A stretch of 64,000 nucleotides of DNA. Origin: Moorella glycerini. Its GTDB lineage: Bacteria > Bacillota > DSM-521 > Neomoorellales > Neomoorellaceae. The position numbers and the translations under genes were made by a program. The notes beneath the pieces are model-generated. The model was given only the letters and a program-made list of their open reading frames with translations. It did no database searches and was not told the origin of the DNA. Location: positions 930,001 through 994,000 of the forward strand of contig NZ_CP046244.1 of the NCBI RefSeq assembly GCF_009735625.1. The letters are read 5' to 3'. Positions 8,236-55,710 of the stretch are shown in pieces; positions within the stretch are counted from its first letter, which is position 1; each line of letters begins with the position of its first letter.

Positions 8236-8266
8236 AAAAGCGGCTGGTGATAAGCCGCTGCTTTAG
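8236..8266. terminator. Bidirectional terminator between the ABC exporter and the sigma-54 operon end
   Basis: A 7-bp stem AGCGGCT/AGCCGCT (8239-8245 with 8253-8259) has a 7-nt loop. Read on the minus strand it is followed by TTTTATTTT, a good terminator for the long operon ending at 8301. The T run on the plus side is weaker. Confidence 0.65.
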
Positions 8267-8300: not shown

Positions 8301-8825
8301 TTATCCTAAAGCTTTCAAGAATAACACTTTATCGTCCTGTCCATCCCCCAGCCCCTCTACAACCGCTTTGATCCCCCGGGAGGCTAATTCTTTTTGCCGG
8401 TTACTGAGATGAGCCAGTATATCTTCTTTCTTACCAAAGCGGCGGGCCCCTGTAGTACAGGCTGAGCTACAAGCCGGCTCTTCTCCTTGTTGCAGCCGTT
8501 CCCAGCAAAAAGTACATTTTACCGGCTCATTGAAAAGGGAATTGTAGTTAATGGCCTCGTGCGGGCAAGCAGCTACACATAATTTGCATCCCAGGCAATT
8601 ATCCCGCTCCCATAAAACGATCCCATCTTTATTTTTAATGAGGGCACCGCCGGAACAAACCGCGCAACAAGCCGGCTGCTCACAGTGGTGGCAGGAATAA
8701 TGGCGACTCCCATCCACCTTCAAGCGGGGTAAGGAGTAATTGGTGTTGCCAGCTTGCCGGCAGGCTATAGTGCAAGCCTGGCAATTAATACATAAAGCAC
8801 TATCCACCAGCAGGACATAATCCAT
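8301..8825 (-). CDS. Four-cluster 4Fe-4S ferredoxin subunit, DmsB/PhsB-like
   Basis: This 174-aa protein starts at the ATG at 8825, which overlaps the stop of the molybdopterin gene and sits behind GGAGGGGAGGG. Four cysteine groups are visible: CINCQACTIAC, CHHCEQPACCAVC, CLGCKLCVAACP and CTFCWERL followed by ACSSAC. This is the four-cluster electron-transfer subunit typical of DMSO/thiosulfate/polysulfide reductase systems. No membrane anchor subunit follows, so the complex with the upstream catalytic subunit is probably soluble. It is the last gene of the ten-gene run. Confidence 0.88.
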   Translation of the reverse strand: MDYVLLVDSALCINCQACTIACRQAGNTNYSLPRLKVDGSRHYSCHHCEQPACCAVCSGGALIKNKDGIVLWERDNCLGCKLCVAACPHEAINYNSLFNEPVKCTFCWERLQQGEEPACSSACTTGARRFGKKEDILAHLSNRQKELASRGIKAVVEGLGDGQDDKVLFLKALG

Positions 8826-10936
8826 CATTTCCCTCCCCTCCCCGGCAGGGCCCTGGATATACGGCACTGGAGATTTTTATGCATAAAACCGCCCCCGACG
8901 GGATCGGTAAGAGCTGGGAAGAGAGAATTGGCCGGCTCCCGGCCAAAGACCGCCTGGCCGTAATAGGGCTGGGTAAAGACACAATTAGGTGGTAATCCCG
9001 CTACCGGGCGGGCAGGTAAAGTAATGGCGCCATAGGCCGTCTCGACAATAAGTTCTTCGCCCGGGCGAATACCCAGGGCCGCTGCCAGGTCAGCATTAAT
9101 TTCCAGGCAGGGCTCTTGCAAATCCCGCGCCCAGCTGCTGTACTGGCACTGGGTATGGTAGTGATAAGCCACCTTGGCGGTACTTAGCAGGAAGGGGTAA
9201 TCGGTAACCTTTTCCCGGCTGTTCCCGGGAGCTTGCAAGACATCCTGGAAATAAGGGTAACGAGCAGCCAGTATTTTCGCATCCATTTGTTCCAGCTCTA
9301 CCTTGCCGGAAGGAGTTGGGAAGCTCTTATCTTCATATAGGCGCCGGCGGGGCTCCTGACCAGCAGGAAAAGGATAGCTTATTCCCCCGGCACTAGAACG
9401 TAAGGCCGCAATAGTAATGCCCTTGATAGACGGTGTAAACTCACGCTCCAATTCCCAGCTTGAGGCCGGGTCAGGCGGGAAATATTCGGCCGGTAAATGC
9501 AAGCGCCTGGCCAGGAGCCGGAAAAATTCAGCTGCCGATTTGGCTTCTCCTGGCGGTTCCAGGACAGCTTCCCGCCACTGCAGGACACGATTAACACTGG
9601 CCTGGGCGGAAGCTTCCTCCAGCCAGTGGGTGGCCGGGAGGACAATATCAGCACAGGTTGCCGTATCATCCATTAAGAGGGTATGGCTGATTACCAGGTC
9701 AAGTTTCTCCAGGGCCGCCCGCATCTGCCGGGAAGCCGGCCAGGTAACGGCCGGATTACCGGCTACGTAGAGGACTTTAATCTCCCCCCCTAACATGGCC
9801 TCATAAAATTCTTGCGCGTCCCGTTTTTTTTCCGGCTTAGATACCAGCTCTGGCGGAATCAGGCCCTGGACTTTACCATAATCGACGATGTGGGAAATAA
9901 TCCCGCCCCCGGGTTGCCCGATATTACCCAGGATGGCCATCAAGGCCTCAAAGGCCAGCAGGGCACCGGTCCCATTACTGGCCGTTGCCAAGCCCCGGCC
10001 GGGGTAAAAAAGACCCGGTTTGCGGTTAGCCAGGTCCCCGGCCAGTTGCTCGATGGTCGCGGCTGGAATTCCGGTAATTGCCTCCGCCCTCTCTGGTGTA
10101 TATTCCCGGACGGCTACCGCCAGGCCGGCAAAACCCCGGGTAAAGCCAGCCACAAACTCCCGGTCATATAGTTCGCGGGTAATGATAATGTGGAGCAGGG
10201 CCAGTCCCAGGGCAGCGTCCGTACCCGGCCGGATTGGGATGAACTGGTCCGCCTGCCTGGCTGTATCGGTCTGGCGGACATCGATAACAATGACTTTGGT
10301 GCCCCGGCGCCTGGCCTCCTGCACCCAGTGGAACTGGCCGGCCTTGGTCTGGGCCAGGTTATTACCAGCTAAAAGGAGGAGCCTGGCCTCCATTACATCC
10401 GCCAGGGGATTAGGAGTTGCAGCTGAGCCAAAAAGGGAAATCCGGGCCCGCCGCTCTGATTCATAGCATATAGGGGACGTGCCATAGGAATTCAGTCCCG
10501 TGAGTTCAGCAAAAATACCATGAATAAACTTGCTATGGGACCCCCCGATTTTAGAAATAATAGCAGCCACCGCAGCATTGCCGTAAGTTTCTCTAGCCTG
10601 CTCCCACCGGCCGGCAATCAGGTCCATGGCTTCTTCCCAGCTCAGGCGACGGAAATGGCCCCGCTCCTTTTTTAAGGGATAAAGGACCCGGGCCGGGCTG
10701 TTTAAAATCTGGGCGGTTTCCATGGGTTTGGGGCAAATGTGCCCTTTATTCCAGGGATTATCCGGGTCACCATAAATACCCGCCAGCTTCCCCCGGGCAT
10801 CCAGGGCAACTAGCAGGCCACAGCCGCCGTTGCAAAGGCCACAAACACTGCGCACCAATCTTCTGGCTTCACTGCTCCCGCTAACTTCCTGCCGCCGGGC
10901 CGGCCGGATATAGCGTGCTAATAGATTAGAATACAT
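8825..10936 (-). CDS. Molybdopterin oxidoreductase catalytic subunit (MopB family)
   Basis: This 703-aa protein has the N-terminal 4Fe-4S motif C32-x2-C35-x3-C39-x28-C68. Molybdopterin-guanine-dinucleotide regions follow, and a dinucleotide-binding C-terminal domain lies at about 585-690. Cys157, in the GTSPICYES stretch, is a plausible Mo or W ligand, as in polysulfide/thiosulfate reductases. No twin-arginine signal is seen, so it should be cytoplasmic. The substrate is not clear: thiosulfate/polysulfide reductase-like is the nearest fit, but hydroxylases and transhydroxylases share the fold. It overlaps both neighbours in the operon. Confidence 0.85.
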   Translation of the reverse strand: MYSNLLARYIRPARRQEVSGSSEARRLVRSVCGLCNGGCGLLVALDARGKLAGIYGDPDNPWNKGHICPKPMETAQILNSPARVLYPLKKERGHFRRLSWEEAMDLIAGRWEQARETYGNAAVAAIISKIGGSHSKFIHGIFAELTGLNSYGTSPICYESERRARISLFGSAATPNPLADVMEARLLLLAGNNLAQTKAGQFHWVQEARRRGTKVIVIDVRQTDTARQADQFIPIRPGTDAALGLALLHIIITRELYDREFVAGFTRGFAGLAVAVREYTPERAEAITGIPAATIEQLAGDLANRKPGLFYPGRGLATASNGTGALLAFEALMAILGNIGQPGGGIISHIVDYGKVQGLIPPELVSKPEKKRDAQEFYEAMLGGEIKVLYVAGNPAVTWPASRQMRAALEKLDLVISHTLLMDDTATCADIVLPATHWLEEASAQASVNRVLQWREAVLEPPGEAKSAAEFFRLLARRLHLPAEYFPPDPASSWELEREFTPSIKGITIAALRSSAGGISYPFPAGQEPRRRLYEDKSFPTPSGKVELEQMDAKILAARYPYFQDVLQAPGNSREKVTDYPFLLSTAKVAYHYHTQCQYSSWARDLQEPCLEINADLAAALGIRPGEELIVETAYGAITLPARPVAGLPPNCVFTQPYYGQAVFGREPANSLFPALTDPVGGGFMHKNLQCRISRALPGRGGK

Positions 10937-12206
10937 TGGCCACTACCCTCCCCCACCCTTGCTGTGCAGGGTTACGGAATTGTTGCCACAGCCTGGCTAC
11001 CCCGAAATTACCTTGAATAAATTCTTTTTCGTGACCCTCTATTACTGCCCCCCTGGCTATAAGCCCGGTTATAACTCCAGCTCCCCGGAGATCACCAATT
11101 AAAGTCATCCCCGCCAGGCGACCCTTCCTGGTAACAATTTTGCGGTAAGTCATTCTTGTTGAGTCTAAAGTAAAGTATTCGCGATCATCAACACCTGTAG
11201 CTGCCGGCAGGCCGGCACTGGCCAGGGGTAAACCACCTATTTCCGTGGCGTTGACAGCCAAAGATCCCCTGTGCTCCCGTGGCAGACCCGCCATATTATA
11301 TCCAGCCACCCTGCCCTGGGCGGCAGCACTCGGCCAAACGGCCACTATACCCCTTTCGCCCCGGGCCAGGTCGAAATGTTCGGCCACATCACCGGCAGCA
11401 TAAATACCCGGTAAACTGGTAGCCATATGGTCATCAACTATAATCCCGGCGTTGATGTCCGCCCCGGCATCCGCCAGCAAGTCATAGTTAGTTTTGACTC
11501 CTACTCCTACTACTACCAGATCGCAGGGGATAACCCGGCCGTCATCCAGGCTGACCCCGGTAACCTTATCCCCATCCAGGATGGCTGTAACCTGCCGGCC
11601 TAATGCTAAGTCGATACCCCTGGCCCGTAAAGCTATTGCTATCAGGCTGGCGCCCCGCTCGTCTAAAGCCTGGGGCAGGAGATAGGGTAAAAACTCCACA
11701 ATAGTTACTGCCAGCCCTAAGCCCCGCAGGGCGGCAGCAGCTTCCACCCCTACCAGGCCGCCGCCGATAACGACGGCTTGCCGGCAATGAGCAGCAAAGG
11801 ACTTTAACTGGCGGGCATCCTCCAGGTTACGGAAGGTAAAAACGCCACAGGCTTCCCGGCCGGGAATGGGCGGTATCCGGGCCGCCGCCCCGGTAGCAAT
11901 GAGCAAACGGTCATAAGGAACTTCTTCGCCGCCGGCCAGGACTACCACCCCGGAGGCCGGCCGCACTTTAACGGCCCGCCGGCCCAGACAGGTCCTGACG
12001 CCCAGGGCCTCATAGAAAGAAGGAGGCCGGATCCACAGCCCTTCCTCCTGGATTTGCCCTTCAAGATAATAAGGCAGCAGGCAGCGCGAGTATGGTGGCC
12101 CTGTTTCCGTGGAGATTAACGTAATCTTACCCCCTGGATCCTCGCAGCGGATGGCCTCCACGGCAAAAACAGCGGCGGCACTGTTCCCAACTATGACGTA
12201 GTCCAT
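10926..12206 (-). CDS. FAD/NAD(P)-dependent oxidoreductase, FNOR type
   Basis: The ATG at 12206 gives 426 residues and has GGAGGTGG upstream; an earlier in-frame start is less likely. An FAD-binding Rossmann motif opens the protein (YVIVGNSAAAVFAVEAI). A second NAD-binding motif, VVIGGGLVGVEAAAAL, lies near residue 150, and the FAD-closing motif YAAGDVAEH near 270. The family includes NADH oxidases and CoA-disulfide reductases. In several CO-oxidising Firmicutes a similar gene follows cooF-cooS, and the same order is seen here. It probably moves electrons between NAD(P)H and the Fe-S partners. It overlaps the CODH-like gene by 16 bp. Confidence 0.85.
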   Translation of the reverse strand: MDYVIVGNSAAAVFAVEAIRCEDPGGKITLISTETGPPYSRCLLPYYLEGQIQEEGLWIRPPSFYEALGVRTCLGRRAVKVRPASGVVVLAGGEEVPYDRLLIATGAAARIPPIPGREACGVFTFRNLEDARQLKSFAAHCRQAVVIGGGLVGVEAAAALRGLGLAVTIVEFLPYLLPQALDERGASLIAIALRARGIDLALGRQVTAILDGDKVTGVSLDDGRVIPCDLVVVGVGVKTNYDLLADAGADINAGIIVDDHMATSLPGIYAAGDVAEHFDLARGERGIVAVWPSAAAQGRVAGYNMAGLPREHRGSLAVNATEIGGLPLASAGLPAATGVDDREYFTLDSTRMTYRKIVTRKGRLAGMTLIGDLRGAGVITGLIARGAVIEGHEKEFIQGNFGVARLWQQFRNPAQQGWGRVVANVF

Positions 12207-13612
12207 CCTGCTGCCACCTCCTCTGCGGCGGAACCAGAATGGCAACTGGCACCGAAGAGCCCGGCCGTGCCCGGGCTGATAAAATTAGCCATCTGGCTGG
12301 CTAAGAAAACTTCAGCCCCATGGGCGATGACCGTTGCTATTCCCGGATAAGCCCGGCTACAGCCAATAACCGGCCAGTAAACTTTCAGCGGCAGTTTCCC
12401 TTGAACAGCCGCCGCCACTGCCAGTCCCCTGACCAGGCCCCGGCAACCGCCTAAATGGAAAACCTGCCCCATATAGCCGGCAGCAATCAATTCGTCCAGG
12501 CCACAACCACCAGCCAGGACGAGGAAACCTTCTTCCAGGAGCTGGCGAGCCAGGTTAACCGTCCCGGTGCCTTCACACAGGAAAAGCAAAGCTATCCCCC
12601 GCATCTCTTTAGCCAGGGCTTCTCCTGCCAGAACTTCCACCAGGTCTTGCTGCCAGCCCGTTAACAGGGAGTGAGGTTTAAACGCGTAATTACTGGAGAT
12701 TACCGGGCCTTCCTGATGGGCTGCCAGGGCTTGACGAATTAATTCCTGCGCCAGGCCTTCCCAATTGGAACCATCAGGTTTAATTTCATTAAGATTTACG
12801 CCCTTTATCCTGCTGCCGGTTAATTGAAAGGGGAGTAAGACACCGCTGGTGTCCGCTATAGCTACCAGGTCCACCACACCCGCCGCCATAGTTTCCCGCA
12901 GGACTGCTTCATTGCCCAGGTAAGGCAGCCCCAGCCGCCAGGCTAAATAATCCCCCTCGCGGCCGGCTGCTACAAGCTGGATGCCCCTGGCGCCATAGTT
13001 GTCTATTGGAGTAGCCGTGGCCGCAATTTGCTTTTTGATTGCTGCCGCCAGGTAGGGTCGGCTACCGTCAATAACGATCGATACTACTTCCGGACTTAAT
13101 AGACCCGGCCCGGCAGGAACTGTAGTCAATGAAGTTAAACCCAGGCTGTCATTGTATAGCTTCTCCTGCTGAGCAAGCCCGGCATAAAAGGCCGCCAGGG
13201 CTACGCGGATGGCCTTGAGTTCCAATTCTTCCCGCCTGCTGCTGCCGGGACGAGCAACCTGGGCTAAAGCTGAAACCATCTCGGCCCCTGCTGGTCCAGG
13301 CCATACACCCCTATCTTTCCACAGGCTTAATTTCCCGGCAGGAATAGTAGCTGCCACAGCAGTCTCCAGCTGCCAGCTTTCTTCCAAATAAAGGGCACTG
13401 CCGGCCAGGACCTTTTCTAAAGTAGACCGTCCCGCCAGATTATCAGCCCCGGCGCCGCAGGCACCCAGGCTGGCGCCATAACCAAAAGGATCAATGCGGC
13501 AAGGTCCCTGGGGACAGCGAGTACAACACAGGCCCAATTTCGCAAAACCGCACCTGAGCCCTTCAGGCTGGCGCCGGGGTGTTTCCGCCAGGATATTTTT
13601 GGAGTTGAACAT
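12191..13612 (-). CDS. Short CODH (CooS)-like protein lacking part of the C-cluster ligands
   Basis: This 473-aa protein is shorter than CooS (about 630). The N terminus keeps the B/D-cluster pattern: Cys21, 29, 30, 33, 38 and 52 in a GLCCTRCPQGPCRI context. C-terminal Cys346, Cys370 and Cys390 line up by context with C-cluster ligands 446, 476 and 526 of the Carboxydothermus enzyme. The equivalents of His261, Cys295 and Cys333 appear replaced: GHNP becomes GSRP, GICCTGNE becomes AAGREGDY, and VQCIMP becomes TSGVLLP. A normal Ni-Fe C-cluster is therefore unlikely and CO oxidation is doubtful. A CooF-like ferredoxin precedes it and an FNOR-type flavoprotein follows. The function is not known. 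Confidence 0.8.
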   Translation of the reverse strand: MFNSKNILAETPRRQPEGLRCGFAKLGLCCTRCPQGPCRIDPFGYGASLGACGAGADNLAGRSTLEKVLAGSALYLEESWQLETAVAATIPAGKLSLWKDRGVWPGPAGAEMVSALAQVARPGSSRREELELKAIRVALAAFYAGLAQQEKLYNDSLGLTSLTTVPAGPGLLSPEVVSIVIDGSRPYLAAAIKKQIAATATPIDNYGARGIQLVAAGREGDYLAWRLGLPYLGNEAVLRETMAAGVVDLVAIADTSGVLLPFQLTGSRIKGVNLNEIKPDGSNWEGLAQELIRQALAAHQEGPVISSNYAFKPHSLLTGWQQDLVEVLAGEALAKEMRGIALLFLCEGTGTVNLARQLLEEGFLVLAGGCGLDELIAAGYMGQVFHLGGCRGLVRGLAVAAAVQGKLPLKVYWPVIGCSRAYPGIATVIAHGAEVFLASQMANFISPGTAGLFGASCHSGSAAEEVAAGWTTS

Positions 13613-13624
13613 GCTAACCCTCCT

Positions 13625-14050
13625 TCACACCGCGAACGGCCCTTCAGCGTAGATTAAAGCCCCGGTAGGACAGGCATGGGCACAGGCCGGCTCCCCGCGA
13701 CCGCTACATAAATCACACTTCCAGGCCTTCCTCTTGCCGGGAAAAGGAAACACCGCCCCTAACGGGCAGACGGTAACGCACATCCAGCAGCCGACACATT
13801 GCTCCCAGTCGCTGGCAACTCCCCCCTCCGGAGTAAAATGCATGGCCCCACTGGTACAGGCTTTGAGGCAAAGCGGGTCCTGGCAATGGCCACAAACCGC
13901 AGGCCAGGCGCCTTCCCCGGCTGGCTGGACCTGGAGGCGGGGCCTGTTGCTAGAACCTGGAGCATTAGTACGGGTCTGGGCTTCAGAACAGGCCAGTTCA
14001 CAGGCCAGGCAGGCCAGACAACGCTCAGGGCGGACAAATAACTGTTTCAT
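13625..14050 (-). CDS. CooF-like four-cluster ferredoxin
   Basis: Starting at the ATG behind CAGGAGT, the protein has 141 residues. Cys groups are CLACLACELAC, CGHCQDPLCLKAC, CVGCWMCVTVCP and CDLCSGRGEPACAHACP, the pattern of CooF and HycB-like electron carriers. It sits 12 bp before the CODH-like gene, the usual cooF-cooS order. It is the likely electron partner of that protein and of the flavoprotein downstream. Confidence 0.85.
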   Translation of the reverse strand: MKQLFVRPERCLACLACELACSEAQTRTNAPGSSNRPRLQVQPAGEGAWPAVCGHCQDPLCLKACTSGAMHFTPEGGVASDWEQCVGCWMCVTVCPLGAVFPFPGKRKAWKCDLCSGRGEPACAHACPTGALIYAEGPFAV

Positions 14051-14072
14051 CGCTTTTACTCCTGTTCCCCTT

Positions 14073-14711
14073 CTACGACTCACCGGTGCTTTCTCCTATC
14101 CGTCGTCCCAATTCTCTTCCCAACTCCCTTGCCCGGGCCACCAGTCTTTCGTTATCACCGGCCCGGCAAAACATTTCTGGCTTTATTGCGTGGCTCCCAT
14201 AATACAAGGGGACATTGCTATAAGCACATTCTTCACCATACCCGCAAGAAAGACAGGGAGCATTGCCGGGAACCTGGATACTACCTACCAGGTTCATGCG
14301 ATACCAATTAAAAAAGTATCTCAGGTATTCTTCCACCCTGGTGGCATCGCGAAATCCTCCGGCTACCGCTATGCCAAACTTACCCTGGGTTAACATCACA
14401 CGATGCTTCAGGGGATAAAGCCTCTCTAAAAAAGTTTTCGTTAAGGCGTTTAATGAAAAAAAGGTGGGGAAGCCCCCGATGACAATCCCCCGGGCAGCTT
14501 CCACCTTGGCCAGGATTTCATTCATCCCATCCTGCTGGACACACCTGTTGGTAGCAGCGCATTTTAAACACGCCAGGCAAGGACGCAGGTGGTAACGGGA
14601 TAGCTTGATAAACTCTGTTTCCAGGCCGGTAGCGACAAGGATTTCCTGGATAACAAAATCCAGATTACTATTAACTATTGAACTGCCGCTAAAGCCGACT
14701 ACTAAAGCCAT
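14073..14711 (-). CDS. Iron-sulfur flavoprotein / NADPH-dependent FMN reductase family
   Basis: This 212-aa protein starts at the ATG after GGAGGCAAAAGAA. It has a flavodoxin-like FMN fold: VVGFSGSS at the N terminus and IVIGGFPTFFSLNALTKTFLERLYPL in the middle. It also has a compact cysteine motif CLACLKCAATNRC (C-x2-C-x2-C-x5-C), the signature of archaeal-type iron-sulfur flavoproteins (Isf). Further Cys pairs occur near residue 160 (CLSCGYGEEC). It probably passes electrons between ferredoxin and flavin within this operon; one possible task is reductive reactivation of the corrinoid protein. Confidence 0.8.
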   Translation of the reverse strand: MALVVGFSGSSIVNSNLDFVIQEILVATGLETEFIKLSRYHLRPCLACLKCAATNRCVQQDGMNEILAKVEAARGIVIGGFPTFFSLNALTKTFLERLYPLKHRVMLTQGKFGIAVAGGFRDATRVEEYLRYFFNWYRMNLVGSIQVPGNAPCLSCGYGEECAYSNVPLYYGSHAIKPEMFCRAGDNERLVARARELGRELGRRIGESTGES

Positions 14712-14753
14712 TTCTTTTGCCTCCACCGAAAACTACTTACATTACCCCTGCAA

Positions 14754-16394
14754 TTATACACCCGCCGGTCTTTCCTGAGGTATGCTCCCACAATCTTCCT
14801 CCAACTCCCGCGGCCCCACCAGGGAGAGGACCAGGCAGAAGCAGCCCACTACTACCAGGAAGGCCACCAGGCCAAAAAGCCCCATCTTATATAACCACCC
14901 GAAACGGGTAACAAGGAGCAGTACCATGGCTGCCGTCAGTATCCCGGCGCCCATAGCCAAGTTCTTCTTCCCAGCTGTAAGCTCGCCGCCTACTTGCCAC
15001 TGGCCGGCCTTTTCTACCAGCGTTACCATTATCAGGGCCAGAATGTTCATGGACATACCAAAGAATACCGGGTGGATGTTGAGGTAAAATTTGGCAGGGT
15101 CCCAGTGACCCAGGGCATACCAGGTGAGACCGCTGATAAAGCCTGCCGCCAGGGCGGCTACCGCTGCTCGCTTCGTGGCCAGGGGCCAGAAAAGGGCGGC
15201 TACTACCGGCGCAAAGGTCGCCCCGTTGCGGAGTGTCCAGGCAAATACATTCCACCAGGCAGCCTGCTCGCTACGGAGAATGCCAAAAATAATCATCATT
15301 ACCGTTAAAACTACCAGGGAAACCTTGGTGTAGTAAACCTTCTGAGCATCCGTTATCTTTGGGTTAATGGCGGCCATGGTGTCCCGTCCCAGACTGGTGG
15401 CCCCGGAAAACTGGCAGGGGGCACCCCACCCCAGGGCACAGGCCCAGACACCAAGGAAAAAGAGGCCTACCAGGGGAGCCGGTAAAACCTGCGCCAGGTA
15501 CAGGGGCACCTGTACCATGCCCCGGGTACCACCAGGGGCTACTACCGCCGCCGCCAGGCCGAAGAGCACGCCGAAGAAGATAAAGATAATGTTGGCGGCA
15601 AAGGCCATGAGCAAACCTTTACGCCCTTCCTCCACCGTCCGGCAGGAGAGGGCCATCTGGAAGGCTGCCTGAGCCAAAAGTACGTTAATTAAAAAGGTGG
15701 CAAACCAGGCGATGATTAACTGCAAACCCACCCCGTCCAGGCTGAACATGGCCGGCTTGCTAGCCGCCAGCTGGGCCAGGCCGCTGAAGCCGGGTTTGAT
15801 AAAGAAGGCTATGCCCCCTATAATAAACATAATGGCAAACATGATGTTATTGGCCGTCTGGGTGACCACTACCGACCACATCCCGCCGGACTGGAGATAA
15901 ATTAGCAATAACAATGCCGTAATAACTACCGCCATGGTAATAGGTATATGGGTAAAGGCAGAAACAGCCGAGGCAAAGGCCAGGGTTGTAGCCACCGACC
16001 ACATGGGGAAGGTAAAGGCGGTAATGGCGCCCGCCACACCCAGGGCCACGCGACCAAAATGGTCGCCAATCAACCCTGATATGGTCACCATCATCCGTTT
16101 CCGGAAATTACCGATGAGAAGCAAGGCAATAATCAGGACATGGACCATTTCGGCCACACCGTACCACCCGGCCGAAATGCCTTTTACATAGGAAAGTTCC
16201 ATGATGGCAATAAATGAGGAGCCGGAGAATAATCCCGTGATACAGACAAAGACCATCCACGGCCGGAAAGAACGGCCACCGACAAAGTAGCCTTCGCTGC
16301 TCTGGGCTCTACGGCGTACCACGTTGCCCAGAAAAATCAAGACGGCCGTATAAACTATGGCTAACCCAATGACCCAACTACCAGTAGCATTCAT
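14754..16394 (-). CDS. Sodium:solute symporter (SSS family), copy 1
   Basis: A GGGAGGT site six bases before the second ATG selects 16394 as start (546 aa). About 13 membrane spans are visible, with SSS features such as GLFSGSSFIAIMELSYVKGISAGWYG and the GWGAPCQFSGATSLGRD block. It is strongly similar along its whole length to the symporter at 21554-23200. Lying between the methyltransferase and redox genes, it probably imports the methylated substrate of this operon. The substrate is not identifiable from sequence. Confidence 0.85.
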   Translation of the reverse strand: MNATGSWVIGLAIVYTAVLIFLGNVVRRRAQSSEGYFVGGRSFRPWMVFVCITGLFSGSSFIAIMELSYVKGISAGWYGVAEMVHVLIIALLLIGNFRKRMMVTISGLIGDHFGRVALGVAGAITAFTFPMWSVATTLAFASAVSAFTHIPITMAVVITALLLLIYLQSGGMWSVVVTQTANNIMFAIMFIIGGIAFFIKPGFSGLAQLAASKPAMFSLDGVGLQLIIAWFATFLINVLLAQAAFQMALSCRTVEEGRKGLLMAFAANIIFIFFGVLFGLAAAVVAPGGTRGMVQVPLYLAQVLPAPLVGLFFLGVWACALGWGAPCQFSGATSLGRDTMAAINPKITDAQKVYYTKVSLVVLTVMMIIFGILRSEQAAWWNVFAWTLRNGATFAPVVAALFWPLATKRAAVAALAAGFISGLTWYALGHWDPAKFYLNIHPVFFGMSMNILALIMVTLVEKAGQWQVGGELTAGKKNLAMGAGILTAAMVLLLVTRFGWLYKMGLFGLVAFLVVVGCFCLVLSLVGPRELEEDCGSIPQERPAGV

Positions 16395-16471
16395 TACCAT
16401 ACCTCCCTTTCCCTCAGACCTAGGGCCTCTAGCTCGTAGCGTAATACCTCGCAGGCTAGAATAAAAACCAT

Positions 16472-17323
16472 CTATGCCTCCTGGTAATGGCGATAATCCT
16501 CAAGATAACGCATGGCCCACTCATCCCGGCCAGCAAGCAAGTCGGCAGCCCTGATACTCCGGCGGATCCCCCTTGCGATAGGATCAACAATCAAGGCCGT
16601 CGCCCCGGCAGCTATGGCCTGGGCAAAAAAGGCCTTATTGATAGCCTGGCGATCGGGTAACCCGTGGGAAACATTGCTGGCCCCTAAAATCAGGTTTAAA
16701 CCTAATTCCTGGGCCACCAGGCGCATGGCTTCCAGGGTAATGACGGCTGCCTTTTGATCTGCTCCTACCGTCATGGCCAGGCAGTCAATAATAATGTCTT
16801 CCGGCCTGAGGCCAAAGGCGATAGCCCGTTCCAGGATATGCCGGGCTATGGCCAACCGCTCTCGCGGCTCCTGGGGGATGCCTTTTTCATTCATGCAGAG
16901 GCCAACGACTGCTGCCCCGTACTCTTTAACTACTGGTAAAATACGCTGTAAAGATGCTTCCTCGCCCGTTACTGAATTTACCAGGGCCCGGCCGTGGTAA
17001 GCCTTAAGGGCTGCCTGTAGGGCTTCGGGCTTGCTGGAATCAAGACATAAGGGTACATCGACAACATCCATTACCGCTCTAACCGCTTCCGGTAAAAGGG
17101 CAACTTCATCAACGCCGGCAGCCCCGACATTAACATCCAGCATATCGGCCCCGTTTTTTACCTGGGCTACGGCCTCTTCCTGGATTAAAGATAAATTACC
17201 TTCCTGGAGGGCCATGGCCATCCTTTTCCTGCCCGTAGGGTTAATCCGCTCGCCGATGATTACCGTGGGTAGGCCCGGACCAATTTCTACCTGTTTATCT
17301 TTGCGTGAAAGTATTGTCTTCAT
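16472..17323 (-). CDS. Pterin-dependent methyltransferase (DHPS-like, MeTr/AcsE-MtvA type)
   Basis: This 283-aa protein has the dihydropteroate-synthase-like barrel of methyltetrahydrofolate:corrinoid methyltransferases. It shows GERINPTGRKRM at the N terminus, DMLDVNVGA near 60, PLCLDSSKPEAL near 92, LVNSVTGE near 115 and GASNVSHGLPDR near 215. In acetogens these enzymes move a methyl group between a corrinoid protein and tetrahydrofolate. Its ATG directly follows the stop of the corrinoid gene, which makes it the second methyltransferase of a three-component demethylase. Confidence 0.9.
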   Translation of the reverse strand: MKTILSRKDKQVEIGPGLPTVIIGERINPTGRKRMAMALQEGNLSLIQEEAVAQVKNGADMLDVNVGAAGVDEVALLPEAVRAVMDVVDVPLCLDSSKPEALQAALKAYHGRALVNSVTGEEASLQRILPVVKEYGAAVVGLCMNEKGIPQEPRERLAIARHILERAIAFGLRPEDIIIDCLAMTVGADQKAAVITLEAMRLVAQELGLNLILGASNVSHGLPDRQAINKAFFAQAIAAGATALIVDPIARGIRRSIRAADLLAGRDEWAMRYLEDYRHYQEA

Positions 17324-17962
17324 TTAACTCACCTTCAGTAATTCATTGGCCACATCTACAGCTGCAGCCGCATCTTTACCATAACCATCGCAGCCAGCTT
17401 TCCTGGCAAACTCTTCCGTGATGGCAGCCCCACCAGCTATGATTTTTACCTTATCCCGCAGGCCGGCATCCTCAAAGGCTTTAACTGTCGCCGGCACATA
17501 GTTCAAAGTAGAAGTGATCAGGCAAGACATGGCAATAATATCCGCCTTATAATCCCGGGCCGCCTGGACAAATTTTTCCGGGGCAATATCAATCCCCAAA
17601 TTAATTACTTGAAAACCGGCACCCTCGAGCATCATGGCTACCAAATTTTTGCCGATATCATGGAGATCTTCTTTTACAGTGCCAATAACTATTACTCCCC
17701 GCGAGTTTGTTTCTGAAGCTGAAAGTAAAGGTTTCAGTATATCCAGGCCCGCGTGGGTAGCCTTGGCGGCAATCAACACTTCCGGGACATAAACCTCGTT
17801 GCGTTTAAATTTTTCCCCGACAACATTCATGCCGGCAATGATACCTTCATTCAGGATTTGTTGCGGGTCAAAGCCCTCCTCCAGGGCCCGGGTACAGCAT
17901 TCTTTAACTACATTTGGCTTATAGGTGATGATGGCATTTTTAATTTCCTCCAGGATGCTCAC
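17324..17962 (-). CDS. Methyltransferase corrinoid protein (MtvC/MtbC-like)
   Basis: This 212-aa protein has a B12-binding cap domain at about 1-85 and a Rossmann cobalamin-binding domain at about 88-210. The base-off signature DLHDIG, near residue 100, supplies the His that binds cobalt from below; SCLITST and GGAAIT complete the site. The GTG start overlaps the stop of the upstream methyltransferase by 4 bp and has GGAGGAG before it. It should carry the methyl group between the flanking methyltransferases. Confidence 0.93.
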   Translation of the reverse strand: MSILEEIKNAIITYKPNVVKECCTRALEEGFDPQQILNEGIIAGMNVVGEKFKRNEVYVPEVLIAAKATHAGLDILKPLLSASETNSRGVIVIGTVKEDLHDIGKNLVAMMLEGAGFQVINLGIDIAPEKFVQAARDYKADIIAMSCLITSTLNYVPATVKAFEDAGLRDKVKIIAGGAAITEEFARKAGCDGYGKDAAAAVDVANELLKVS

Positions 17963-19023
17963 GCTATCTCCTCCTTTTGCTGGGCGGCAATTTTGGTAGC
18001 CGAATATTCCCTCGCTGTTTTTAACATTGCCCTGACATTTGCATCGGGAGTTCCATAATCACACCCGACGGCATCAATGGAAAGCTTGTCATAAGGAGCG
18101 CCAATATCAATGATCCGTTTTACATCTCCGGCAATTTCTTCCGGCGAACAATTTAACATGCGGACAGGGTCGATGCGGGCATTGACAAAAACGTCTGGCA
18201 TGAGTTCCCGCAAACGTTTTAAATCCGTCATGGGACCTACTTCCAGGAAGGAGAGATTGTTAACCTTGGCATAACCCTCCAGCATATGATCGGCCTTGCC
18301 ACAATGATGGATGCCGAAGGGCTGTAAGGTTGCTGAAAGCCTGTTTTCGTAAGGGAGGACAAATTCTTCAAAGGCCTGGCGCGAGATCTGGACTACCGTA
18401 CAATCAGGCAAAACATACATTTCTGGCGGTGCCATGGGCGTAACTGACGAAGCCAGGGTGCCCGTCCGGCTTTTGACATAACGGGCCAGCTGGATAATGG
18501 TTTCCGTACAGATATTAAATAGATGATGCACCAGGTCGGGATTTTCAAAGAAATCGATATAGAGCTGGTCTCCCCGGATCTTTAAACCCAGGTTTAAAAC
18601 CCCGGTGGTATTAATGTTACCGGTGACCCGGCCATATTTTTGTTCCAGGTAATCCATTTGTTTGATAATTTCCGTCATGGGGTAAGCCTGGGTAATATCG
18701 GGTACTTTTAACTGGAAGATCTCTTCTTCTGATAAATTAGCCGGTACCGCCCAGGGAATGGCGTCATCAAAGAATTTAACTTCGCACCCAAAGACCTCCG
18801 GCAAAAGAACCATACCGTAATCAATAAAAGGTTCGGGTTCGGGATCGGGTTTCCCCATACCTACATCGCCAAAACGTTCATACAGGATACGCTGCTGTTT
18901 TTGAAAGGCATCTACCCGGTAGTCAGGATCATAATAGTACTGGCGGTTATAAGAAATACCGTAATTCTTATACCACCAGCTGGGATAAAAGCCCACTTTA
19001 GCGTTAATATATTTGGTGGCCAT
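17959..19023 (-). CDS. UroD-fold methyltransferase (MtaA/MtbA/MtvB-like methyl donor:corrinoid)
   Basis: The ATG at 19023 follows GGGGGTG and gives 354 residues. The uroporphyrinogen-decarboxylase-like barrel of MT1/MT2 methyltransferases is evident. A zinc-type signature His-x-Cys occurs in IHHCGKADH near residue 247, with a later Cys in AVGCDYGTPDANV near 330. As first gene of the operon, directly upstream of a corrinoid protein, it should demethylate the imported substrate. Vanillate-type O-demethylases of acetogens use this three-part plan, but the substrate here could equally be a methylamine, betaine or methyl thioether. Confidence 0.85.
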   Translation of the reverse strand: MATKYINAKVGFYPSWWYKNYGISYNRQYYYDPDYRVDAFQKQQRILYERFGDVGMGKPDPEPEPFIDYGMVLLPEVFGCEVKFFDDAIPWAVPANLSEEEIFQLKVPDITQAYPMTEIIKQMDYLEQKYGRVTGNINTTGVLNLGLKIRGDQLYIDFFENPDLVHHLFNICTETIIQLARYVKSRTGTLASSVTPMAPPEMYVLPDCTVVQISRQAFEEFVLPYENRLSATLQPFGIHHCGKADHMLEGYAKVNNLSFLEVGPMTDLKRLRELMPDVFVNARIDPVRMLNCSPEEIAGDVKRIIDIGAPYDKLSIDAVGCDYGTPDANVRAMLKTAREYSATKIAAQQKEEIA

Positions 19024-19063
19024 TTGGCAAACACCCCCTTCAGTTATCTGGTAATTAAATTTT

Positions 19064-19079
19064 TGCAAGAATCATGCCA
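19064..19079 (-). promoter_or_regulatory. Sigma-54 (-24/-12) promoter of the methyltransferase/CODH-like operon
   Basis: On the minus strand the sequence is TGGCATGATTCTTGCA, matching TGGCAC-N5-TTGCA with the invariant GG and GC correctly spaced. It lies about 40 bp before the first gene and downstream of three activator-type dyads. Confidence 0.88.
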
Positions 19080-19150: not shown

Positions 19151-19246
19151 TGGTGCGCGGATGTACCACTTTTAATATTAAAAACCTAAAAGCACTTTAA
19201 TTTCGCACTGGTACGCTAGGCTACCAAGTGGTGCTCTGCTGTACCA
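19151..19246. promoter_or_regulatory. Three 18-bp dyads, probable enhancer sites for the sigma-54 activator (set 1)
   Basis: Three copies fit the plan TGGTxC-N6-xxACCA: 19151-19168 (TGGTGCGCGGATGTACCA), 19209-19226 (TGGTACGCTAGGCTACCA) and 19229-19246 (TGGTGCTCTGCTGTACCA). They lie about 70-180 bp upstream of the sigma-54 promoter, the usual enhancer distance. The last two overlap the 3' end of the activator gene, so its C-terminal codons are also operator DNA. Confidence 0.7.
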
Positions 19247-21302
19247 GTCCATATTCGCGGGCCTTACGTAAAAGGGTGGAATGGGCTATCCCCAAACTTT
19301 CTCCCGCCCGCCTCAAGCTATGGTGCTCCTGCAGGGCCCGGGAGATAAGCTTTTTTTCTAATATCCGGGTGGCCTCATTAAGGGGAATTAAATCATCTAC
19401 GTAAATTGTTACTCCTCCCTGGCCTCGATCCTTACAGATATAGGCCGGCAGGGATTTACAGGTAATTACCTTTTCTTCCGTAGTTACCACCAGGCGTTCG
19501 ACCAGGTTCTCTAGCTCCCGGACATTTCCTGGCCAGGTATAGCTTATAAAAGCAGCAAAAACATCTTCCCCTAACTGCTTGTTTAAGCCGTAACGCTGGT
19601 TATACTTTTGTAAAAAAGCCCGGGCCAGGGGTAAAATATCCTCCTTGCGTTCACGCAAGGGTGGAATTTCAATGGGCACTACGTTAAGGCGGTAGTAAAG
19701 GTCCTGGCGAAATCTCTTTTCCGCCACCAGCTGGCGTAAATCCTGGTTGGTAGCAGCAATGATCCTTATATTGAGGGCAATCGGCTTACGCCCTCCCACG
19801 CGAAAAAGCTGCTGGTCCTGAAGTATCCGGAGCAATTTAACCTGTAAATTTAAAGGCATTTCCCCAATCTCATCCAGGAGAACTGTGCCCCCGTTAGCAC
19901 ATTCTAATAAACCTATTTTGCCCCCGCGTGTGGCGCCGGTAAAAGCCCCTTCTTCATAGCCAAATAGTTCGGATTCCAACAGATTTTCCGGGATGGCACC
20001 GCAATTAACCTGCACAAAAGGCCCGTTATGCCGGGGACTGGTACGGTGAATTATTTTGGCAATTACCTCTTTCCCTACACCTGATTCTCCTGTTAACAGG
20101 ACGGTGGAATCAACATGAGCCACCCTGATAGCCTGTTCTACAATCCGTTCCATCTGTTTGCTCTTAAATATAATTTTTTCTGTTTCTAATAAACGCGCCC
20201 GCAGTTCATTTAATTCTGTGGTGAGCCGGGCGGTCGCATCACGATTTTGCTCCAGTTCTGCCTGCAGGCGATTGAGCTCGGTCATATCGCGAATGTTGAC
20301 CACAACCCTGGCAATTGTTCCTTCTTCCGTAAATACCGGATTACCGGTAATCAAAACGTCCCGCCCTGCGGCTGTAATTACTTTGACAGTGGCTGGTTTT
20401 TTATGATGGGTTACCTGTTGAAAAATATCGTCAAGATATTTATTTTCCTGAAAGTTACATCCCGCCTCACCCAGGATACGCTCATAACTGGAATTAAAGC
20501 GTAAAACATGTTTATCCCGGCCCAAAACAACAATACCGTCATAAGAAGAAGCAATGATGCTTTCCAGTTCATTATTCAAGGCTTTAACGGCACTTAATTC
20601 ATTATAAGCATTTTCCAGGGCGGAAATATCCTGCAGTACGGCAACTGCTCCGGCCACTTTATTATTAAAATATAAAGGATTTTCGCTTAAAATAATAACA
20701 TTATCATTTAATATTACCCGTCGTCCATTTATCACCTGGTTGGCCTTAATATCTGTAAGCAAATCACCTTCAGGGAAGACATCTTTTATTTTTCGCCCTA
20801 AAATAGCTTTTGCCGGCATGCCAAGTATTTTTTCAGCCGCAGCGTTAAAGTGGATAATCTCTCCTTCTTCATTAACAGCTATAATACCATTCGGTACAGC
20901 TTGCAGGATAACTTCTAACTGATTTTCTGTTTCCTGGAGAGCCTCGTATACCTGGTTAATAAGACTAAGGCGAGTTAAAATTCCTTTCAGCTTCTGGTCA
21001 TTATCTACCACCAGGAGGCGTTCCAGGGGTAAATGAGCAACATCATGAAAGGGTGTATCTTCATGGATACTTACCAGATTACGATCCATTACTTCGACCA
21101 CAGGCGTATCAAAGCTTTTTCCTGCTCGCAAAGCCTTAATCAATTCCCGGATGGTAATTATCCCTACTATTTTGTCGTGTTCGCTTATTATAGGCGCACA
21201 GGTAAAGGGGCCACAGAGATAGATATCGGCTGCCTCGCTCAAGGTGGCATTGGCAGCTAAAGTTTGGGGTGTATGATACATAACTTGTTTAACGCGAAGC
21301 AT
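19221..21302 (-). CDS. Sigma-54-dependent transcriptional activator, CBS-PAS-PAS-AAA-Fis (copy 1)
   Basis: This 693-aa regulator has two CBS motifs (about 1-118), PAS domains at about 125-235 and 245-360, and a short coiled segment. The AAA+ domain (about 385-620) carries Walker A GESGVGKE and the sigma-54 contact loop GAFTGA. A Fis-type helix-turn-helix ends the protein (about 650-690). CBS and PAS domains suggest sensing of a nucleotide, redox state or small aromatic ligand. It lies upstream of the sigma-54 operon on the same strand and is the obvious activator. A -10 TATAAT (21335-21340) and -35 TTGAAT (21358-21363), 17 bp apart, precede it. Confidence 0.92.
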
Positions 21303-21553: not shown

Positions 21554-23200
21554 CTATTTGCCCGCCGGGCCTGCCTGGGGCCTGGCCTCCGCTACAGCTA
21601 AACTCTCTGCCCTTTCTTCTCCGGTAAAGGCAATTACCATGCAGAAGGCAGCAATAAAGATCAGGAAAAGGACCATGCCAAAAACGCCTTTAGCATAAAG
21701 CCAGGTAAACTGGTTAACAGCCAGGATGATTAATGCCAGGCCGGCAACCATGGCCCCGAAACCAACACTCCTGGCTGCTCCTTTCCCGGGTATCGCCCAG
21801 CGATAGCTGCCAGTCCTTTCAATCAAGGTAACCAGGGTTAAAGCCGAGACGTTAAAGATCATACCAATCCACACCGGGTGGATGTTCAGGTAAAACTTCG
21901 CCGGGTGCCAGCCGCCCAGGTGATACCAGGTTATACCAGAAACAAACCCGGCGACCAGGGCGCTTACAGCTGCCTTTCTGGTAGCCAGCGGCCAGAAGAG
22001 CACCCCGATGACGGGAGCAAAAGTGGCCCCATTGCGGGCCGTCCAGGCCAGGACATTCCACCAGGCGGCCTGTTCCGTGCGCAGGAAGCCAAAGATAATC
22101 ATTAAGCCGGTTAAAATTACCAGGGACCATTTGGTGTAGGCAACCATCTGCTTATCGGTAACTTCAGGATTCAGGGACGAAACTACGTCCCGTCCCAGGC
22201 TGGTGGCCCCGGAGAACTGGCAGGGAGCCCCCCACCCCAGAGCGCAGGCCCAGATACCCATGAAGAAGATGCCCACCAAGGGTGCCGGTAAAACCTGGGC
22301 CAGGTATCTGGGTACGGCTACCAGGCCACGGCCGACGCCGGGGGCTACCACCGCCGCTGCCATGCCAAAAAGAACGCCTAGGACGATAAAAACAATGTTA
22401 AATCCTGCTGCCCAGAGGAGACCCTTTTGTCCTTCTTCCGGCGTGCGGCAGGAGAGGGCCATCTGGAAGGCCGCCTGGGCCAGAAAGACGTTGACCAGGA
22501 AGGTGCCGAACCAGGCGAGGATTGTCTGCAGGCCAACGGTAGTCAGGCCGTACATGGCCGGTTTGGTCACCGCCAGCTGGGCCAGGCCGGCGAAGCCGGG
22601 TTTAAGGAAAAAGGCTACCAGACCGATTATAAACATCAAGGTAAAGGCCACGGTATTGGCCGTCTGGGTAAAGACCACCGACCACATGCCGCCAGCCTGC
22701 AGGTAAATTAGCAGGAGCAGGGCGCTGAAGATTACCCAGGTAGATAACGACATCCCTGTAAAGGCGCTCATGGCAGCGGCAAAGGCCAGGGCATTGGCGG
22801 TAGCGTACATGGGAAAGGTAAAGGCCGTGACAGCGCCGGCGATGGCCTTGGCCGTGCGCCCGTAGCGTTCACCGATCAACCCGGATACGGTCACTACCAG
22901 GCGTTTGCGGAAGGGTATAACAAAAAATAAGGCAATAATTATCACATGGATTAATTCAGCCACGCCATACCAGCCGGCAGAGATGCCCGTGGTATAGGCC
23001 AGTTCCAGGATGGCGATATACGAGGAACCGGAAAAAAGCCCGGTTATACAAACAGCCACCATCCAGGGCTTGAACTTACGGCCGCCCACCCAGAAGTCCT
23101 CACCGCGGGCGGCCCGGCTTCTGGCTACGTTGCCGGCAACAATCAGAGCGACTGTGTAAATGACAGCCATAAATAAGATCCAAAAAGCGTAGGTATTCAC
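21554..23200 (-). CDS. Sodium:solute symporter (SSS family), copy 2
   Basis: This 548-aa, 13-span transporter is a close paralogue of the one at 14754-16394, sharing the SGSS(Y/F)IAI and GWGAPCQFSGATSLGRD blocks. The start is GTG with GGGGGG upstream. It follows the OsmC-like gene and probably shares its transcript from the sigma-54 promoter at 24127. Copies 1 and 2 each lie in the control range of one of the two activators, suggesting duplicated uptake circuits for related substrates. Confidence 0.85.
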   Translation of the reverse strand: MNTYAFWILFMAVIYTVALIVAGNVARSRAARGEDFWVGGRKFKPWMVAVCITGLFSGSSYIAILELAYTTGISAGWYGVAELIHVIIIALFFVIPFRKRLVVTVSGLIGERYGRTAKAIAGAVTAFTFPMYATANALAFAAAMSAFTGMSLSTWVIFSALLLLIYLQAGGMWSVVFTQTANTVAFTLMFIIGLVAFFLKPGFAGLAQLAVTKPAMYGLTTVGLQTILAWFGTFLVNVFLAQAAFQMALSCRTPEEGQKGLLWAAGFNIVFIVLGVLFGMAAAVVAPGVGRGLVAVPRYLAQVLPAPLVGIFFMGIWACALGWGAPCQFSGATSLGRDVVSSLNPEVTDKQMVAYTKWSLVILTGLMIIFGFLRTEQAAWWNVLAWTARNGATFAPVIGVLFWPLATRKAAVSALVAGFVSGITWYHLGGWHPAKFYLNIHPVWIGMIFNVSALTLVTLIERTGSYRWAIPGKGAARSVGFGAMVAGLALIILAVNQFTWLYAKGVFGMVLFLIFIAAFCMVIAFTGEERAESLAVAEARPQAGPAGK

Positions 23201-23270
23201 TCACAGTTCCCCCCTGTAGCCTTGTTAAGATTTAATTCTCTCTAGTGAATGCCTTCCCCGATATCCACTT

Positions 23271-23729
23271 TTAATTACCGCTGGCTTCTTTTAAGAAGGG
23301 GTAAGGATACTCCTGGCCGTTAATTTTAAAAGCATACTCGATGGAACCGGCTGTCTTCATCATATTGGCTGCCGAACAGTACACCTCGTCAGCCAGCTTG
23401 ATGGCGTGGGCCACCTTGTCCGGCGGGATATTGGCCCCCTGGAAATGATAAACTACCCGCATATGGGTAAAAATTTTGGGATGGTCGGCAGCCCTTTCGC
23501 CTTCAACCGTAATGGTCAGGTCATCATAACTGACCCGCATTTTTTGCAGGATGTGGGTAACTTCGATACCGGTACAACCGCCCAGGGCCATAAGCATCAG
23601 TTCCATGGGCCGGGCACCCTGGTTCTCGCCACCATAGATGGGGCTGGCGTCCATGGCCACCCGGTGGCCGGCACCGTCATCCCCCACAAACTGCATCTTA
23701 CCTGCCCAGTTGACTGTGACTTTTGCCAT
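23271..23729 (-). CDS. OsmC/Ohr-family protein
   Basis: The ATG at 23729, behind GAGGAGG, gives 152 residues; longer readings run into a non-coding repeat. OsmC features are the N-terminal strand AKVTVNWAGKMQF, the first-Cys motif ALGGCTGIEV near 54 and the second at VYCSAANMMKTAG near 120. The family reduces organic hydroperoxides or binds small thiol-reactive ligands. In the same transcription unit as a symporter it may detoxify or bind the imported compound. That link is inferred. Confidence 0.85.
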   Translation of the reverse strand: MAKVTVNWAGKMQFVGDDGAGHRVAMDASPIYGGENQGARPMELMLMALGGCTGIEVTHILQKMRVSYDDLTITVEGERAADHPKIFTHMRVVYHFQGANIPPDKVAHAIKLADEVYCSAANMMKTAGSIEYAFKINGQEYPYPFLKEASGN

Positions 23730-24126
23730 CGAAATCATCCTCCTCTGGGTTATTCTACCCTGAAAATAACTTCGCTCCAGGCTGGCATTGTTTTTGCTCG
23801 CTCCCTGGTCCTCGCGGATCAGCCTACGGCTCAGCCTTGGGCTCGGGCGCCCAGCACTCACTAAACTCAGGTGCCTCCAAAGGTAGTGCGACTGCATAAA
23901 CCGAAGAACTGGTTACTGTAACTTGGTTACTGTGAGTGCTGGGCGGCCTATTCGGCATCCTTGCCTTTAGAATCCGGCCTTTGGCCTCTCTGTCCTCGGC
24001 CCCGCCCTCGCTCTCGGCACAGCCTGCGGCTGCTTAACCGCTCGGACCAAGTCGCTCGCTCCAAACAAATGCCAGCCGCGTTAGCGGCATAAAAGTCTTG
24101 TTACCGCTATCACTTATTTTGTAGAT
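23730..24126. repeat. Structured non-coding element in the leader between sigma-54 promoter 2 and osmC
   Basis: About 400 bp without a credible gene. It holds a perfect 14-bp inverted repeat (23848-23861 with 23932-23945, CGCCCAGCACTCAC) enclosing 70 bases. The 9-mer GCTCGCTCC is directly repeated at 23796-23804 and 24054-24062, and related AGCC(T)xCGGCT units lie between. It reads like a dispersed genomic repeat inserted in the 5' untranslated leader. A sigma-54-like sequence (TGGCATTGTTTTTGCT, 23783-23798) also faces right on the plus strand. Confidence 0.5.
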
Positions 24127-24142
24127 TGCAAAAATCATGCCA
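24127..24142 (-). promoter_or_regulatory. Sigma-54 (-24/-12) promoter of the osmC-symporter unit
   Basis: The minus strand reads TGGCATGATTTTTGCA, nearly identical to the promoter at 19064. It would give a transcript with a leader of about 400 nt before osmC. Confidence 0.85.
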
Positions 24143-24207
24143 GGGTATATAAATCCCCTTGCACCATCTCCGGCTACAAGGGGATGGGATAAAAAAAGAA
24201 CCTTTTC

Positions 24208-24326
24208 TGGTCTGTTTGCGCACCAGTAATCCCGGTTATTTACTTTGTTCATGTGGTCACATTATAATTTAACCCCGTAAATTAATCCGGTGCAGTTTCA
24301 GACCGCTTCGGTGCAATTTTGCACCA
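24208..24326. promoter_or_regulatory. Three 18-bp dyads, probable enhancer sites (set 2)
   Basis: Copies at 24208-24225 (TGGTCTGTTTGCGCACCA), 24288-24305 (CGGTGCAGTTTCAGACCG) and 24309-24326 (CGGTGCAATTTTGCACCA). As in set 1, one is promoter-proximal and two lie close together across the 3' end of the activator gene. The half-site TGGTGC is shared with set 1. Confidence 0.68.
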
Positions 24327-28530: not shown

Positions 28531-28531
28531 T

Positions 28532-29788: not shown

Positions 29789-29930
29789 CACAACCCCTCC
29801 CCAGGATTTAAGGTTAACCGGTCCGGTCATTTACCAGTTTAACCTTAACCTGTCCCCCAGGACAGGCAAAAGGTGTGTGGTGGCTAATGTAGCAGGGAGG
29901 CTTTACGGAACCGGGGAAAGCATGGTAAAA

Positions 29931-30461: not shown

Positions 30462-30660
30462 AAACAGCCCCCCAGAATAATTTGCTAAAATTATATCACT
30501 TTGGGGGAACTGTTACATGTTATCTCGATATTTTAAATTGATAAAGTTAGGACTAGTTTTAAGGATGATAGTGTGCTAAATGACAGGGTAGGATTAAGGG
30601 GACATATTTGATTTTAAATACATATAGACCAAACTTATGTTCTTGCGGTAAAATAAAGTT

Positions 30661-48223: not shown

Positions 48224-48248
48224 GTGTTATGTCTCCCTTCCTGGGATT

Positions 48249-48291: not shown

Positions 48292-48321
48292 AAGTGGTAA
48301 CAACAGGCATGCTGTATATAT

Positions 48322-51566: not shown

Positions 51567-51590
51567 CTTTAGACCTCCAATACTGCTATA

Positions 51591-55707: not shown

Positions 55708-55710
55708 TTT

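Follow-up and report, generated by a model that had tools for sequence, protein, structure and literature searches.

A corrinoid demethylase joined to a molybdoenzyme redox chain in a predicted sigma-54 operon of Moorella glycerini

Background

Corrinoid-dependent demethylase systems with a UroD-type methyltransferase and a RACE protein (reductive activator of corrinoid enzymes) are known, and the RACE gene is often clustered with them (PMC10418091, PMC13222342). MtvABC of Moorella thermoacetica and the Odm and Vdm systems of Acetobacterium dehalogenans each have a methyltransferase I (MT1) of the UroD superfamily, a separate corrinoid protein and a methyltransferase II (MT2) that passes the methyl group to tetrahydrofolate, and type 1 mlp clusters likewise pair a UroD-family methyltransferase with a corrinoid protein (PMC10418091). 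Gene clusters of CooF, a carbon monoxide dehydrogenase (CODH) and an FAD/NAD(P)-dependent oxidoreductase (FNOR) are known in several Ni-CODH clades (PMC6344411), as are small CODH-like proteins, termed mini-CooS or clade G (PMC8776680). Here we describe a locus of Moorella glycerini in which elements of both kinds stand together. Ten genes on the minus strand, at positions 8301-19079 of a 64,000-nt stretch (contig NZ_CP046244.1, 930,001 to 994,000; hereafter the window), run from an MT1-corrinoid protein-MT2 set through a symporter and a flavoprotein into a chain of a CooF-like protein, a CODH-like protein, FNOR, a molybdopterin oxidoreductase (MopB) and a ferredoxin (Fd).

The demethylase half shares its three components with MtvABC and Odm/Vdm, but a PDB search with its MT1 found no relative at E<=0.001, this MT1 carries an H-C plus Asp site, the redox module is joined into the operon, and this copy has no RACE. 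Type 1 mlp clusters contain several Mlps where this locus has one MT1, and they differ further in that an MT2 is present here and the invariant His-Cys-Cys site is missing. The redox half has the same adjacent genes and protein types as the CooF-CODH-FNOR clusters (PMC6344411), but half of the C-cluster ligands are lost, MopB and Fd are added, and the whole lies behind methyltransferase genes; most relatives of the window operon, unlike those clusters, have CooF and FNOR without any CODH. The CODH-like protein is, as in mini-CooS and clade G (PMC8776680), a short sequence from an anaerobic thermophile, although the mini-CooS of Thermosinus, compared here by its description, has a complete metal-cluster motif and the window protein an incomplete one. 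A literature search that covered few subscription papers found no corrinoid demethylase operon described as containing either a MopB-FNOR chain or such a CODH relative, which leaves uncontradicted, if not proved, the claim of the first-pass annotation of this DNA that no described demethylase operon carries such a redox module. The coupling is seen again in distantly related bacteria, so the pathway is real and, provisionally, apparently undescribed.

Results

Gene neighbourhoods indicate that the redox genes are genuinely tied to the demethylase and that this link recurs in two classes. The ten same-strand open reading frames (ORFs), read from the window sequence, are given below in gene order, followed by the control elements around them.

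17959..19023, minus strand: MT1, UroD-superfamily methyltransferase I (PF01208, 79 bits; HHC motif and invariant Asp)
17324..17962, minus strand: corrinoid protein, MtgC/MtbC type (B12-binding_2 and B12-binding; NCBIfam MtgC 222 bits, below the cut-off of 370)
16472..17323, minus strand: MT2, methyl-corrinoid:tetrahydrofolate methyltransferase (Pterin_bind; PRK07535 288 bits, above the cut-off of 259)
14754..16400, minus strand: sodium:solute symporter, SSS (PF00474)
14073..14726, minus strand: iron-sulfur flavoprotein, FMN_red with C-x2-C-x2-C-x5-C (PF03358; motif from the translation)
13625..14083, minus strand: CooF-like polyferredoxin (Fer4_11)
12191..13612, minus strand: short CODH-like protein with D/B-cluster Cys and an altered C-cluster site (TIGR01702 125 bits, cut-off 478; PF03063)
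10926..12245, minus strand: FNOR, FAD/NAD(P)-dependent oxidoreductase of PadH/NirB type (Pyr_redox_2 208 bits; PadH 309 bits, cut-off 475)
8825..10936, minus strand: MopB molybdopterin oxidoreductase with a Cys ligand (PF00384, PF01568, PF04879; Fdh-alpha 325 bits, cut-off 666)
8301..8867, minus strand: polyferredoxin, likely the MopB partner subunit (Fer4_11, 74 bits)
19064..19079, minus strand: -24/-12 promoter element TGGCATGATTCTTGCA (1 mismatch to consensus)
19221..21302, minus strand: sigma-54-dependent activator, CBS-CBS-PAS-PAS-AAA+-HTH (Pfam Sigma54_activat 238 bits, CBS, PAS, HTH_50)
8239..8259, minus strand: terminator-like hairpin after the last gene, ferredoxin (pattern match only)
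19122-19098: terminator-like hairpin ending the upstream activator gene (pattern match)

The first-pass annotation had proposed this ten-gene set, and all of its ORFs, coordinates, strand and family assignments hold. A UroD-type MT1, a corrinoid protein with both B12-binding domains and a pterin-binding MT2 lie adjacent as a three-component demethylase set, a unit conserved in twelve operons. In gene order the junctions measure -4, 0, 71, 27, -11, 12, -55, -11 and -43 nt, the widest being MT2-symporter (71 nt) and symporter-flavoprotein (27 nt) and the remainder short or negative. From this spacing and the conserved gene order, we infer that the ten genes form one operon, read as a single transcript.

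Control by sigma-54, also part of the earlier proposal, is borne out by a -24/-12 element and an adjacent activator, both conserved at orthologous loci. The element lies about 40 nt 5' of the likely MT1 start, an ATG at 19023, which is probably the true start rather than 19068. Taken alone it stands at chance level, the window holding 28 matches with at most two mismatches against 33.7 expected. A matching element nevertheless recurs 5' of MT1 in seven other loci (M. stamsii, G371, G439, G418, G416, G427 and G411, where G numbers are our labels for genomes), which is poorly explained by chance and supports the promoter. An orthologue of the activator precedes MT1 in G371, G125, G042, G418, G416, G427 and G411.

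The nearest named relative found for the window genome (3.56 Mb) is Moorella stamsii DSM 26217, with a CODH-like protein 93% identical. A gene-neighbourhood search for the ten-gene order, the check that the first-pass annotation had suggested, recovered the complete set in identical order in M. stamsii and, with one gene moved, all ten genes in G371, which represents a second genus of the same family. Identities in G371 are 60% for the activator, 85% for MT1, 73% for the corrinoid protein and 74% for MT2, and in the redox part 53% for CooF, 35% for the CODH-like protein, 61% for FNOR, 66% for MopB and 42% for ferredoxin; its symporter is 71% identical to a second symporter of the window. The G371 flavoprotein gene (73% identical; 48% in G440) has been relocated to the operon end, and an extra transposase-like ORF stands between MT2 and the symporter. 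Since the genes stay together despite this rearrangement and the strong divergence of the CODH-like protein, their linkage is better evidenced than by order alone.

A further survey of 83 genomes of another class found a MopB relative (50-55% identity) in 12 of them. In seven contigs MopB lies downstream of methyltransferase-operon genes. Five of these (G439, G418, G416, G427 and G411) show MT1, 65-69% identical to that of the window, in the order sigma-54 element, MT1, corrinoid protein, MT2, (DUF1638), RACE, (symporter), CooF, FNOR, MopB, Fd; the other two operons (G440 and G429) have lost their upstream part to the contig end. Within this class, a MopB relative occurs in six of seven MT1-bearing genomes versus six of the 76 others (Fisher p 1.6e-5, shared ancestry ignored). 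Besides the G371 copy, nine MT1 orthologues are 65-76% identical to the window protein, and redox genes are missing beside those of G125, G042, G420 and G441. Genomes from the order and class of G125 and from the order of G042, three or four of each, yielded no further operons. Far from never being conserved together, redox and methyltransferase genes are thus found linked in two classes, as the first-pass annotation had supposed for this one locus.

The chain also occurs by itself. CooF-FNOR-MopB-Fd stands without a nearby methyltransferase gene at six loci (G346, G386, G435, G420 and second copies in G411 and G429), which argues that the redox unit has its own job; a short contig of G430 shows FNOR-MopB-Fd only, and in G002 MopB-Fd is accompanied by a cytochrome b. 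This distribution indicates that the redox part is a self-standing module that became attached to the demethylase. In a MopB tree the window, M. stamsii and G371 proteins group together (96/100), and most deeper forks are unsupported, so the tree does not show a single origin of the methyltransferase-linked modules.

MopB falls in the MopB/DMSO-reductase superfamily, with Molybdopterin, Molydop_binding and Fe4S4 domains above the curated cut-off. It shares the 4Fe-4S domain and Cys ligand of FdhA formate dehydrogenases, and its best family match is formate dehydrogenase alpha (TIGR01591), but the score is only half of the curated cut-off. In an alignment of the window protein with five relatives, the Cys ligand is retained and followed by Tyr or Phe in place of His (ICY/ICF/VCY), and the RGQ motif with its Arg is absent, which argues for a separate Cys-ligated subgroup. 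A formate dehydrogenase identity was rejected on the loss of the catalytic His and Arg. The MopB N-terminus, read from the translation, has no twin-arginine leader. Profile searches placed FNOR closest to PadH and matched the CooF-like protein to the PadI N-terminus. PadH is the NADH-linked subunit of phenylglyoxylate dehydrogenase, and PadH and PadI shuttle electrons to NAD; unlike that enzyme, this locus has no 2-oxoacid oxidoreductase subunits. Given this likeness, the enzyme is most naturally read as cytoplasmic and NAD(P)H-linked.

The ligands of the CODH-like protein were mapped by alignment with canonical CODHs (CODH-II numbering). It retains the D-cluster Cys C21 and C29, all four B-cluster Cys (C30, C33, C38 and C52) and the C-cluster Cys C346, C370 and C390 (CODH-II positions 446, 476 and 526). 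The C-cluster set is incomplete, with S184, R218 and G257 in place of H261, C295 and C333, and the catalytic H93 and K563 are replaced by Y75 and R420; these five positions are also lost in the M. stamsii and G371 homologues. A helical stretch of roughly 70 residues is missing. All three homologues have a new Cys, C418, that precedes the former catalytic lysine by two residues, and they share ten Cys, six for the D- and B-clusters and four around the old active site. These four (C346, C370, C390 and C418) may hold a cluster there. A single-sequence structure prediction reached a pLDDT of 40 and was not used. The family match behind the earlier label "CODH-like" stands; with half of the C-cluster ligands lost, the protein is no normal Ni-CODH, and CO oxidation by it is very unlikely.

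Short CODH-like proteins were also seen at three other loci, L100 (G400:C62, 123-8790), L101 (G275) and L102 (G081), with lengths of 504, 422 and 423 amino acids. Their genes stand with CooF, ferredoxin, FNOR and a conserved protein of 214-215 amino acids (no Pfam match for the G400 copy), near genes resembling tripartite tricarboxylate-type transporters, and the CooF gene of G400 has a UroD-family gene next to it. The three proteins retain Cys resembling C333, C446, C476 and C526 and not H261/C295 (G400 aligned, the others by eye). CODH-like redox modules of this kind, not acting on CO, seem to form a wider class.

Clues to the substrate come from MT1 and from an exporter. MT1 keeps the HHC motif; the third zinc-ligand position is C, V or L and out of register, and a neighbouring Asp is invariant in ten orthologues. 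The His-Cys-Cys zinc site of SCMT/Mlp-type S-methyltransferases is therefore absent, and S-methyl specificity by way of that site, which first looked right, was dropped because the third Cys is variable and out of register. By a published zinc-site rule, in which His-Cys-Cys goes with S or Se and a carboxylate or loss with O (PMC10418091), the predicted donor leans to O-methyl, the rule being a weak guide here. A TauE/TSUP exporter lies beside all four MT1 operons that lack the chain and one of the eight that have it (p 0.01, ancestry ignored, small numbers), and also next to most free-standing redox modules. A simple reading would be that some lineages export the demethylated product, probably an anion, and that others process it with the molybdoenzyme.

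A second sigma-54 unit lies directly upstream (window 21554-26403, minus strand). It comprises an activator (24298-26403), a -24/-12 element at 24142-24127 (TGGCATGATTTTTGCA), an OsmC-family gene (23271-23897) and the second symporter (21554-23200, minus strand). An OsmC gene (55%) also stands just upstream of the MT1-operon activator in G420 (L135), so OsmC may belong to the same pathway. An aldehyde:ferredoxin oxidoreductase of the tungsten-enzyme family (33940-35664, minus strand) is near the operon and outside it. Elsewhere in the window, a mobile-element patch (27730-33515) holds a Mu-type integrase with an AAA partner, an IS110 transposase and an IS605 OrfB/Cas12f1-like TnpB protein (30608-32068). 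A sugar-type operon (47423-58538, minus strand) contains a UroD-family gene (54664-55707) with an ABC transporter, an FGGY kinase, a xylose-isomerase-like protein, a class II aldolase and a DeoR regulator. The whole genome has about 28 UroD-family matches, with groups near 464-490, 611-615, 1305-1315, 2165-2175 and 2652-2662 kb.

Discussion

We tentatively favour, at close to an even chance, processing of the product or of a co-substrate by an NAD(P)H-linked cytoplasmic molybdoenzyme module over the rival explanations. The roles of all operon enzymes, including the predicted substrate processing, are read from family and context. In this sigma-54-controlled methylotrophic operon, the symporter would import a methylated compound, whose methyl group MT1 would transfer to the corrinoid protein; from there MT2 would hand it on to tetrahydrofolate and the Wood-Ljungdahl pathway, all as expected of their families. 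CooF, FNOR, MopB and Fd would constitute a cytoplasmic NAD(P)H-linked molybdo- or tungsto-enzyme. It would catalyse oxidation or reduction of either the demethylated product or a second substrate encountered along with it, and electrons would pass between this enzyme and NAD(P), in one direction or the other, through FNOR and the ferredoxins. The CODH-like protein would be a degenerate CODH that oxidises no CO and has been kept as a partner of CooF and FNOR, in electron transfer or as a scaffold, and the corrinoid would be reactivated by RACE encoded elsewhere in the genome. The first-pass annotation had offered two roles for the chain, and a Mo/W-dependent step on the product remains the better choice of the two.

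Several observations weigh against this proposal. The chain is absent from four of the twelve MT1 operons and so is dispensable for demethylation as such. The pattern of export or processing comes from few related genomes, and G439 has both exporter and chain. The 71-nt gap between MT2 and the symporter, with the G371 insertion at the same place, allows a separate transcript. Finally, the neighbourhood evidence is equally compatible with an NADH-driven electron sink.

Such a sink, for instance a sulfur-linked one, is the main rival, and we consider it unlikely, though the least so of the alternatives. Here part of the methyl groups would be oxidised to CO2, and MopB would use the resulting NADH to reduce an acceptor, either inorganic or organic and perhaps a sulfur compound, thereby balancing redox during methylotrophic growth. 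What keeps this rival alive is a CoA-disulfide-reductase/rhodanese protein encoded next after Fd in three operons (G416, G427 and G411). Consistent with it, the Cys-ligated MopB has thiosulfate and nitrate reductases as secondary matches, free-standing CooF-FNOR-MopB-Fd copies have a CRP/FNR-type regulator nearby, and TauE/TSUP lies beside most free-standing modules and in the G439 operon. Yet TauE and rhodanese are common families, the best family match of MopB is still a formate dehydrogenase and no reductase, and the chain here has no membrane or exported subunit.

An improbable alternative places MopB upstream of the demethylase, where it would generate the actual methyl donor of MT1 from a precursor taken up by the cell, for instance an S-oxide or N-oxide. 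S- and N-oxide reductases do occur among MopB enzymes, and the genes of the redox module accompany those of the transporter and MT1; however, this MopB has a Cys ligand where typical DMSO and TMAO reductases use Ser, and the four MT1 operons without the chain do without MopB.

The other role offered in the first-pass annotation, reactivation of the corrinoid in place of RACE, is weakened. Its premise held in part. RACE was not found in the window, in the M. stamsii locus or in 50 kb of sequence around that of G371. The window genome does have three RACE genes at other places, so the demethylase system has its RACE at genome level. In all seven redox-bearing operons of the other class, RACE is in the same operon, at or near the CooF gene. 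Replacement of RACE by the chain as a whole was accordingly rejected on this coexistence and the three genomic copies, and the chain is found without methyltransferase genes too. A narrower version, in which only the CODH-like protein and CooF would bring the corrinoid from Co(II) to Co(I), draws on a mutual exclusion across the ten redox-bearing operons: the three with a CODH-like gene lack RACE, and the seven without one have it. This exclusion may be a single event in one family. Moreover, the chain has nothing ATP-coupled, and a molybdoenzyme would be superfluous for corrinoid reduction. We therefore regard reactivation by the chain, or by only CODH-like protein and CooF, as highly doubtful, and give equally little credence to a degenerate CODH, with D/B-clusters and a rebuilt C346/C370/C390/C418 cluster, having replaced RACE as low-potential corrinoid-reactivating donor in Moorella relatives.

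That the short protein is an active Ni-CODH, oxidising CO or reducing CO2 and feeding CooF and FNOR, is scarcely credible and was rejected: the three genes do lie adjacent on one strand, likewise in G371, as in the recognised CooF-CODH-FNOR setting (PMC6344411), but the C-cluster and catalytic positions H261, C295, C333, H93 and K563 are gone in all three homologues.

Conclusions

Corrinoid demethylases are well studied, and the fate of the demethylated remainder is usually left out. A conserved operon of a demethylase with an NAD(P)H-linked molybdoenzyme points to a new anaerobic pathway, present both in a second class and among thermophilic acetogens. For studying scaffold reuse, the CODH relative is a natural case, given its apparently rebuilt active site. 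Both questions are testable in M. stamsii, a cultured type strain with the same ten-gene order.

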